Positions 32,622 to 34,405 of a DNA stretch of 64,000 bases are shown here, in pieces. Below the pieces are notes generated by a model, which was given only the letters and a program-made list of their open reading frames with translations, had not been told where the DNA came from and searched no databases. How positions within the stretch are numbered: position 1 is the first letter of the stretch; each line of letters starts with the position of its first letter. The translations under genes and the position numbers were made by a program. The stretch covers positions 1 to 64,000 of the forward strand of contig JAQGNH010000389.1 in the NCBI GenBank assembly GCA_028291945.1, read 5' to 3'. This DNA comes from Betaproteobacteria bacterium. GTDB taxonomy: Bacteria; Pseudomonadota; Gammaproteobacteria; Burkholderiales; SG8-41.

Positions 32622-33275
32622 ATGGAGTATTTACTAGCGGTCCGGCAGCGGGTGCTGCGGGAACTGACCGGCATCAAGGCGATCCAGACAGTGCTCGCCG
32701 GCAAACCCGACCTGGCGCTCTATGGACGCTATCTCACCAACGTTTTTCATTACGCCTGTCACAGCGCCGAGGTGATCGCGCTTGCCGGCGCACGGTGCAC
32801 ACGTTCGCATCCGGAAGCCAGCCGATACCTGATGCATCATGCCGAAGAGGAGATGGGCCACGAGCTGTGGGCGCTCGACGATCTTGCGGCGCTCGGCATA
32901 GATCAAGCGACAGTGCGAGCCGCGCGACCGGTGCCGGCCTGCGCCGCCATGATCGCCTTCGAATACTACACCGCGGGCCGCGTCAATCCGGTTGGCCTGT
33001 TCGGCTGGCTTTACGTGCTGGAGGCCATGGGCGACGACCTCGGTAAGCGCGTCGCCGCGGGCCTGCAGGGCGCGTTGGGCGGCAGCAAGCGCGGGATCAA
33101 GTTCGTCGCAGGCCATGGCGTCGCCGATCACGAACATACGGCGGACCTCACTCAGGTGATTTCTCAGCACATCACCGCACCGCAGGATATAGCCGACGTG
33201 AACCACGTGGCGGATGTTAGCGCCGACCTTTACGTACGCATCTTCCACCAGATCAGCGCTAACGGCGAGGCGTGA
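32622..33275 (+). CDS. Heme-oxygenase-like iron-containing redox enzyme (putative HDO-type diiron protein)
   Basis: GRYLTNVFHYACHSAEVIALAGAR...YLMHHAEEEMGHELWALDDLAALG...MIAFEYYTAGRVNPVGLFGWLYVLEAMG...HGVADHEHTADL. Confidence 0.75.
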   Translation: MEYLLAVRQRVLRELTGIKAIQTVLAGKPDLALYGRYLTNVFHYACHSAEVIALAGARCTRSHPEASRYLMHHAEEEMGHELWALDDLAALGIDQATVRAARPVPACAAMIAFEYYTAGRVNPVGLFGWLYVLEAMGDDLGKRVAAGLQGALGGSKRGIKFVAGHGVADHEHTADLTQVISQHITAPQDIADVNHVADVSADLYVRIFHQISANGEA

Positions 33276-34405
33276 GCATCACAGTCGCGCTGGCGCAGAC
33301 TGCCAAGGAGCGCGCCGAGGTCTACGCTTTCCGCTATCGCATCTATGTCGAGGAGATGGGGCTTCAGCCGCCTGGCGCCGACCATCAACGCCGCCAATTG
33401 GCGGACGAGTACGATCCACAGGGTCTTTCGTATGCGCTCGTTGAAGACGGCGCGATCGTCGGATCGCTGCGGTGCGTATTCATGGACCAGCTGCCCGACC
33501 CGAGCGCCCTGATCGCGAAGTTCCACATGGAGCCGGCGCTTGCAGCGTTCGGACTTTCTGCGATCGTCACCACGAGCCGCTTCATGCTCGACCCGCGTTT
33601 ACGTCACGGCACAGCGATCCTGCGGCTGATCGAAGCAGCCTACGACGATGCCCGCCACCGCGGCATACGGCTGAATTACGGCGACTGCAGCCCTCACATG
33701 CTCGAGTTCTACGAACACATGGGTTACCGCCGCTTTACCCGCGCTTACAACGACACCTATTTCGGCTTCAAGCTGCCGATCCTGATGCTGATCGGCGACC
33801 AGGAGTTGTTCGATAGAGTTCACTCGCCGCTCGGCCGGCTCGCCGCCGCGTATTCCGACGACATAGAGGTGCGCGACTGGTTCGCGCAAACCTACCCGGA
33901 GTATCTCGGCCTGGAGACAGCGTCGTTGTTGTCCGAGGGCAGCTTCTTCGATCTGCTCACCGAGCGAGTATCGAGCGATCCGCTGCACGCGGTCGCCTTG
34001 CTGCATAACCTGAACCGCGAGGAGGCCGATCGCTTCCTGGCGCACGCCACGCTCATCAAGGCGCAGCCGGGCGATTTCATCGTTCGTCAGGGCGATCGCG
34101 ACGATACCATCTACATCCTGCTTTCCGGGCTTGCCGAAGTCATCCTCGACGGCAATGAAGAGCGGCCGCTTCGCGCACTCGCTGGTGGCGACATCTTCGG
34201 CGAGATCGGCTTTCTGACGACCACGCGTCGCACTGCTTCCGTGGCTGCACGTGCGCCTTCGGAGATCCTCGTGCTGTCGGCTCCGTTCCTGAAGCGCTTC
34301 CTCAAGCAGGAGCCATTGATTGCCGCGAAGCTGCTTTATAACCTGTCGACCATACTGGCCAGTCGTCTCGCGACCGCAACGCTCAAGGAGAGCGCAGGAA
34401 AGTAG
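33272..34405 (+). CDS. GNAT/LuxI-FeeM-like N-acyltransferase fused to C-terminal cyclic-nucleotide-binding domain
   Basis: AEVYAFRYRIYVEEMGLQPPGAD...TSRFMLDPRLRHGTAILRLIEAAYDDARHRG...GDFIVRQGDRDDTIYILLSGLAEVILDGNEERPLRALAGGDIFGEIGFLTTTRRTASVAAR; GTGA overlap with upstream gene. Confidence 0.85.
   Translation: MSITVALAQTAKERAEVYAFRYRIYVEEMGLQPPGADHQRRQLADEYDPQGLSYALVEDGAIVGSLRCVFMDQLPDPSALIAKFHMEPALAAFGLSAIVTTSRFMLDPRLRHGTAILRLIEAAYDDARHRGIRLNYGDCSPHMLEFYEHMGYRRFTRAYNDTYFGFKLPILMLIGDQELFDRVHSPLGRLAAAYSDDIEVRDWFAQTYPEYLGLETASLLSEGSFFDLLTERVSSDPLHAVALLHNLNREEADRFLAHATLIKAQPGDFIVRQGDRDDTIYILLSGLAEVILDGNEERPLRALAGGDIFGEIGFLTTTRRTASVAARAPSEILVLSAPFLKRFLKQEPLIAAKLLYNLSTILASRLATATLKESAGK

Follow-up and report, generated by a model that had tools for sequence, protein, structure and literature searches.

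Two overlapping genes lie on the forward strand of the window, the whole 64,000-nucleotide stretch of Betaproteobacteria bacterium DNA that was analysed here. Gene 1 (32622..33275, +) has an ATG start, encodes 217 amino acids and was assigned through Pfam PF14518, AlphaFold and Foldseek as a candidate heme-oxygenase-like diiron oxidase (HDO). Gene 2 (33272..34405, +), with a GTG start and 377 amino acids, was assigned through Pfam and AlphaFold as a FeeM/LuxI-type GNAT acyltransferase with a C-terminal cyclic-nucleotide (cNMP)-binding domain (GNAT–cNBD). The stop of gene 1 and the start of gene 2 share the four bases GTGA (33272..33275, +). Both open reading frames and their overlap are as an initial annotation of this DNA had placed them. 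No promoter-like sites were found in the region, and the one terminator-like site lay inside gene 2 and was not above chance.

Gene 1 is a predicted HDO with six iron ligands

Gene 1 matched the Pfam family Haem_oxygenas_2 (PF14518) with an E-value of 1.7e-24 and 87 bits (cut-off 28.9), which agrees with the HDO-superfamily features that the initial annotation had read from short motifs, all of them present. A TenA thiaminase was considered and rejected: the Pfam TENA_THI-4 score (20.2 bits) fell below its cut-off of 22, whereas PF14518 was far above its own. The AlphaFold2 model of gene 1, made with 12 homologues (mean pLDDT 95.7, pTM 0.91), had the seven-helix heme-oxygenase fold, with Foldseek TM-scores of 0.79–0.88 to 3DDE (0.88), chlamydial CADD (0.83–0.85; CtCADD 0.83) and UndA (0.79), and of about 0.72 to BesC.

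The HDO superfamily is defined by six ligands, three histidines and three carboxylates (PMC13108848). The initial annotation had made its reading depend on these ligands, and in gene 1 the set is complete, falling on helices 1–3 as E77, H80, E134, H165, D169 and H172; five of the six are invariant in 12/12 sequences. The first-helix ligands E77-x2-H80 (32850..32861, +), both invariant, have the spacing of Glu86/His89 in MboA (PMC13185094). The second-helix ligand E134 (33021..33023, +) is Glu in 11 of the 12 homologues and Asp in the other (L090), and the invariant third-helix ligands H165-x3-D169-x2-H172 (33114..33137, +) align with the H-x3-D-x2-H motif of CADD. The ADHEHTADL motif picked out in the initial annotation is present, and is more exactly part of this classical third-helix set. 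The residue that follows H80, E81, is acidic (Asp or Glu) in 10/12 sequences and matches in position MboA Asp90, which is described as able to swing onto Fe1 (PMC13185094). Sequence and model identify gene 1 as an HDO whose predicted diiron ligand set is complete.

Gene 2 joins a GNAT domain to a predicted cyclic-nucleotide sensor

Judged by sequence, gene 2 combines a FeeM/LuxI-type ACYLTRANSFERASE with a sensor of the cAMP type, the architecture (FeeM/LuxI-like GNAT plus CRP/cNMP-type beta-roll) that had been proposed for it. The AlphaFold model of the whole protein had a pLDDT of 87.5 and a pTM of 0.83. The GNAT domain, residues 16–163 (33317..33760, +), matched Pfam FeeM (PF21926) with E 1e-9 and 38.8 bits (cut-off 27), a moderate score for membership of that family, and Acetyltransf_5 with E 4e-7. 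A profile of 20 homologues found the AHL synthase BjaI (5W8C) as the nearest solved structure (E 8e-5), and the AHL synthases BjaI and 3P2F are the nearest solved relatives of the domain. Structure prediction, which the initial annotation had proposed as a check, bore out the HDO fold with its six ligands and the sensor fold; the GNAT half was assigned by sequence rather than by fold, because sensor matches filled the Foldseek list.

The conserved motifs of the GNAT domain are RYRIYVEEMG, ADH, TTSRF and GDCSPH, and its positions R21, Y22, A36-D37-H38, D48, R67, R103, D138-C139, G151 and G165 are invariant or nearly so. The domain has the LuxI-type residues R-x-R-[YF], D48, R67 and S-R-F, but its similarity to BjaI reaches only the E-value given above and LuxI family models were unmatched. 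The canonical acetyl-CoA loop, R/Q-x-x-G-x-G/A, is degenerate (L-R-H-G-T-A), so the domain is unlike an ordinary acetyltransferase. The acyl or acetyl donor pocket was gauged by family membership, with FeeM above its cut-off and the acyl-CoA-dependent BjaI as nearest structure. Between the ADH and DCxPH motifs (33383–33697, gene 2 residues 38–142), H38, D138, C139 and H142 are invariant or strongly conserved, and could form a catalytic or metal site atypical of GNATs.

A partly helical linker, residues 164–262 (33761..34057, +), with lower model confidence at residues 211–240 (about 66–72), leads to the cyclic-nucleotide-binding beta-roll, residues 263–346 (34058..34309, +; PF00027, cNMP_binding, E 5e-18). 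Its Foldseek matches were HCN, SthK, PKA and CRP domains, and its nearest solved relatives by sequence are domains of the PKG/PKA/HCN/SthK/CRP type. A C-terminal helix seen in the AlphaFold secondary structure, residues 348–376 (34313..34399, +), ends the protein, and no DNA-binding domain follows the sensor.

The phosphate-binding cassette runs from E311 to R320 (FGEIGFLTTTRRTASV; 34202..34231, +), and gene 2 has the beta-roll with cassette Glu and Arg expected of a cAMP-type domain. In such cassettes the Glu and Arg hold the ribose and phosphate of cAMP. Of 18 sensor-bearing homologues, 16 have Arg at the position of R320, 17 have Glu at that of E311, and 16 keep both. Since both are retained here, the bound nucleotide is more likely cAMP-like than c-di-GMP, and these pocket residues point to possible gating of gene 2 by cAMP. 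Eight class III nucleotidyl cyclase domains are encoded in the source genome, so a cyclic nucleotide is plausibly available. At two loci (L075:1682-2806 and L082:633-1757) the sensor Arg is gone, in L082 together with the Glu, with GNAT and HDO still conserved; these two loci may no longer be gated, and nucleotide gating would therefore not be universal.

The pair recurs in four phyla

When 85,462 species genomes were scanned with the GNAT alignment, 21 loci came up; relatives had to be sought with the isolated GNAT part, because a full-length gene 2 query retrieves only other cNMP-binding proteins. In 3 genomes of the same genus, 32 of the same family and 24 of the same order, searches for full-length gene 2 gave no match, and the GNAT part had no match on plasmids. 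Conservation of the pair outside the source genome had been set beforehand as a refutation test, and the same pair in the same order was present at nine other loci, with 40–62% identity for the HDO and 43–64% for the GNAT. Its recurrence in nine other genomes argues that the arrangement is not a product of chance.

Within the close clade (the window plus L073–L082, n=11), 10/11 GNAT–cNBD genes are immediately preceded by an HDO gene of the same orientation; only L078 departs from this, being a second copy in a metagenome-assembled genome (MAG) that also carries the pair (L076). The two genes overlap by 1–16 nt in the window, L073, L074, L075, L076, L081 and L082, and are 5–32 nt apart in L077, L079 and L080.

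The hosts are Alpha- and Gammaproteobacteria, ‘Deltaproteobacteria’/Myxococcales (Myxococcota), the cyanobacterium Brasilonema bromeliae and two Acidobacteriota, in which the pairs sit on contigs of 960 and 426 kb; the pair thus spans four phyla (Pseudomonadota, ‘Deltaproteobacteria’/Myxococcota, Cyanobacteriota and Acidobacteriota). Among the close relatives found, B. bromeliae alone has a record that does not come from a MAG. The gene tree mixes these phyla, placing the window nearest to an alphaproteobacterial MAG and then to a deltaproteobacterial MAG and Brasilonema, and divergence of the HDO is correlated with that of the GNAT (r 0.76, Mantel p 0.0017). From the mixing of phyla in the tree we infer that the pair is a rare, horizontally mobile two-gene cassette that moves as a unit.

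A search of 60 genomes of the Brasilonema family with the GNAT profile found one other genome (G837, 12.3 Mb), where a stand-alone 194-residue GNAT relative (L139:1492-2073) has no sensor or HDO nearby. When the pair was sought in these 60 relatives of the cyanobacterium and in two genomes of the G152 lineage, only the known cases and this GNAT-only gene were seen.

Genomic context of the pair

HDO genes were counted by PF14518 search of whole genomes, most of which are MAGs, so that absences are uncertain. The paired HDO is the only HDO in five close-clade genomes (G000, G802, G804, G807 and G808), and likewise in G817, the genome of L090. The same search found no HDO in the genomes of the distant GNAT–cNBD clade and of L092 (G810–G816 and G819, mostly MAGs), and in G820 gave only a match below cut-off. 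Because genomes of unpaired GNAT–cNBD genes are generally without any HDO, the HDO looks like an optional step; this suggests an acylation that can proceed by itself, with oxidation as a tailoring reaction.

As background we took the 30 strongest HDOs from 399 Pseudomonadota genomes with flanks of about 1.5 kb on each side. Such a GNAT adjoined 0/30 of them, and an AMP ligase adjoined 19/30 in this sample, which one family dominates. Sensorless HDO–GNAT pairs also occur, at L090 and L091 (4-nt overlap) and at L068 (tail to tail); both genes of L090 and L091 are distant relatives.

No third gene (redox partner, exporter, receptor or other) recurs around the pair. The window flanks hold FMN dehydrogenase, HpcH aldolase, FMO-like, TctC and TauD genes, which are absent from the other pair loci and look like an ordinary catabolic region.

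Several loci combine the same parts differently. At L084:5752-9125 a Rieske ring-hydroxylating oxygenase gene overlaps the GNAT–cNBD gene by 4 nt and an isochorismatase-family gene follows; the Rieske enzyme looks like a different oxygenase in the role of the HDO. At L083:420-2391 the GNAT–cNBD gene overlaps a methyltransferase gene. At L070:9405-10382 (−) a cNMP-binding domain precedes a FeeM-like GNAT, a reversed domain order that suggests an independent fusion. The reversed fusion and the Rieske partner together suggest that such combinations were assembled more than once.

A proposed acylation–oxidation pathway and its alternatives

The reading that we favour, tentatively and at somewhat less than an even chance, is that an amine or amino acid is N-acylated under nucleotide gating and that the HDO then oxidises the same molecule in an O2-dependent reaction. 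The two genes would be co-translated as one module. Binding of cAMP or another cNMP to the sensor would switch the acyltransferase on or off; the GNAT domain would take a fatty acyl group, donated by acyl-CoA or acyl-ACP, and attach it to the amino group of an amino acid or a related amine; and the HDO, with Fe2 and O2, would oxidise the N-acyl product by desaturation, decarboxylation or hydroxylation, the free carboxylate of that product binding Fe1 as the substrates of MboA and UndA do. Five HDOs bind substrate directly at Fe1 (PMC13108848), MboA doing so through the C-terminal carboxylate of its substrate (PMC13185094). This binding mode suits an N-acyl amino acid, whose carboxylate stays free.

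Acylation is placed first because GNAT–cNBD genes also occur in HDO-free genomes and because the sole HDO of five close-clade genomes adjoins the GNAT. With the order reversed, the HDO would make an unusual amine or hydroxylamine from an amino acid, which the GNAT domain would then acylate. We consider this rather unlikely, even though characterised HDOs mostly take amino acids or their derivatives (PMC13108848, PMC13185094) and all directly paired loci have the HDO gene first: in genomes that have a GNAT–cNBD without an HDO the acyltransferase probably uses its own acceptor, a point softened by their membership of a distant clade, which may use other amines.

The sensor invites two further readings. 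Gene 2 could acylate protein lysines under cAMP control, in the manner of mycobacterial Pat (KATmt), which also carries GNAT and cNMP-binding domains in one chain, and could in this way regulate the HDO or other enzymes. The NCBIfam Pat model does match gene 2, but over the sensor part (residues 254–331), at 32.3 bits against a cut-off of 460 and not over the full length. Pat has its sensor domain first, opposite to gene 2, and its substrates are proteins; the GNAT of gene 2 is of the FeeM/LuxI type rather than the Pat type and has a degenerate acetyl-CoA motif, and a near-constant HDO partner is unexpected for a general protein acetyltransferase. We therefore regard a Pat-like role as improbable. 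A Pycsar-like anti-phage effector triggered by cyclic nucleotide would suit the sporadic, mobile distribution of the pair, and PADLOC models of Pycsar effectors match the sensor (E 6e-14); this match is confined to the sensor domain, however, no defence gene, whether a Pycsar cyclase or another, recurs around the pair, and we know of no small-molecule-type enzyme among Pycsar effectors, which makes a defence function very improbable indeed. The GNAT half, with BjaI and 3P2F as nearest solved relatives, might instead be a divergent AHL-like synthase whose acyl chain the HDO modifies. Its similarity to LuxI proteins is weak (E 8e-5), and no gene of any kind recurs beside the pair, hence no LuxR-type gene; we think an AHL-type signal quite improbable, a little more so than a Pat-like role.

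Acylation followed by oxidation is thus the best form of the acyltransferase–diiron oxidase small-molecule pathway that the initial annotation had suggested; of the second messengers named there, a cAMP-like one is likelier than c-di-GMP. The product is probably an oxidised, fatty-acid-linked small molecule under nucleotide control, although we infer the product, the substrate order and the gating. It is conceivable, but in our view doubtful, that the pair represents an undescribed class of small-molecule or lipid pathway, with an N-acyltransferase gated directly by a cyclic nucleotide and a dedicated diiron enzyme that oxidises its product, leading from second messenger to an acylated, possibly diffusible metabolite in a two-gene cassette that passes between phyla.

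Functions are known for only about a dozen of the more than 10,000 HDOs (PMC13108848). For this uncharacterised HDO subfamily the pair provides a defined substrate hypothesis, namely the product of the neighbouring acyltransferase. If the sensor gates that acyltransferase, the enzyme would connect a cyclic nucleotide directly to the synthesis of an acylated metabolite, without a transcription factor.

Comparison with known systems

The nearest solved structure to gene 1, by sequence and by fold, is Sden_3740 of Shewanella denitrificans (PDB 3DDE), an HDO of unassigned function that is about 30% identical to it. FeeM, the N-acyl tyrosine synthase whose Pfam cut-off the GNAT domain passes, and BjaI, its nearest solved relative, are to our knowledge both without a cNMP-binding domain. 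The nearest functionally characterised HDO by profile (E 2.4e-12) is MboA, the HDO acetylenase of mangotoxin biosynthesis (PDB 9YPI), which shares the E-x2-H spacing. MboA differs from our model for gene 1 in having a peptide substrate and a redox partner, MboB, and in the accessible part of its report an acyltransferase partner is not described (PMC13185094).

HDOs of the same Pfam family, 28–32% identical, also occur in a conserved acyl-activating operon (L094–L098) on plasmids of Pseudoalteromonas, Variovorax, Citrobacter and Pantoea, in the gene order T_hemolysin (thermostable hemolysin family, PF12261), AMP ligase, HDO, SDR and small TPR protein; in P. donghaensis (L096) AMP ligase and HDO are fused in one protein. 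This operon is probably an uncharacterised acyl pathway, and differs from the window pair in being without a FeeM-like GNAT and without a sensor. T_hemolysin was tried as a homologue of the GNAT domain, but profile comparison showed no link and we do not claim homology.

We found no description of an HDO combined with a FeeM-type GNAT and a cNMP sensor in the literature searched, which covered few subscription papers. Each domain comes from a known family, and the novelty is in their combination. The closest parallel in logic is provided by the acyl-oxazolone pathways TyzA/TyzB/TyzC of M. tuberculosis and OxzA/OxzB of P. rubra, where, as here, a synthase gene lies beside the gene for an O2-dependent oxidase (PMC10404671). 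TyzA is a FeeM/BjaI-like N-acyl amino acid synthase, with BjaI and FeeM reported as its nearest structures, and TyzC is an O2-dependent desaturase of the N-acyl amino acid (PMC10404671). TyzA/TyzC is a precedent established by biochemistry, but because TyzC is a flavoprotein, the analogy to our pair is one of logic and not of homology. The Tyz and Oxz pathways use a flavin nitroreductase-type oxidase and a ThiF protein that cyclises the product (PMC10404671), whereas the window pair, with no recurrent third gene, has a diiron HDO as its oxidase and a synthase that carries a cNMP sensor.
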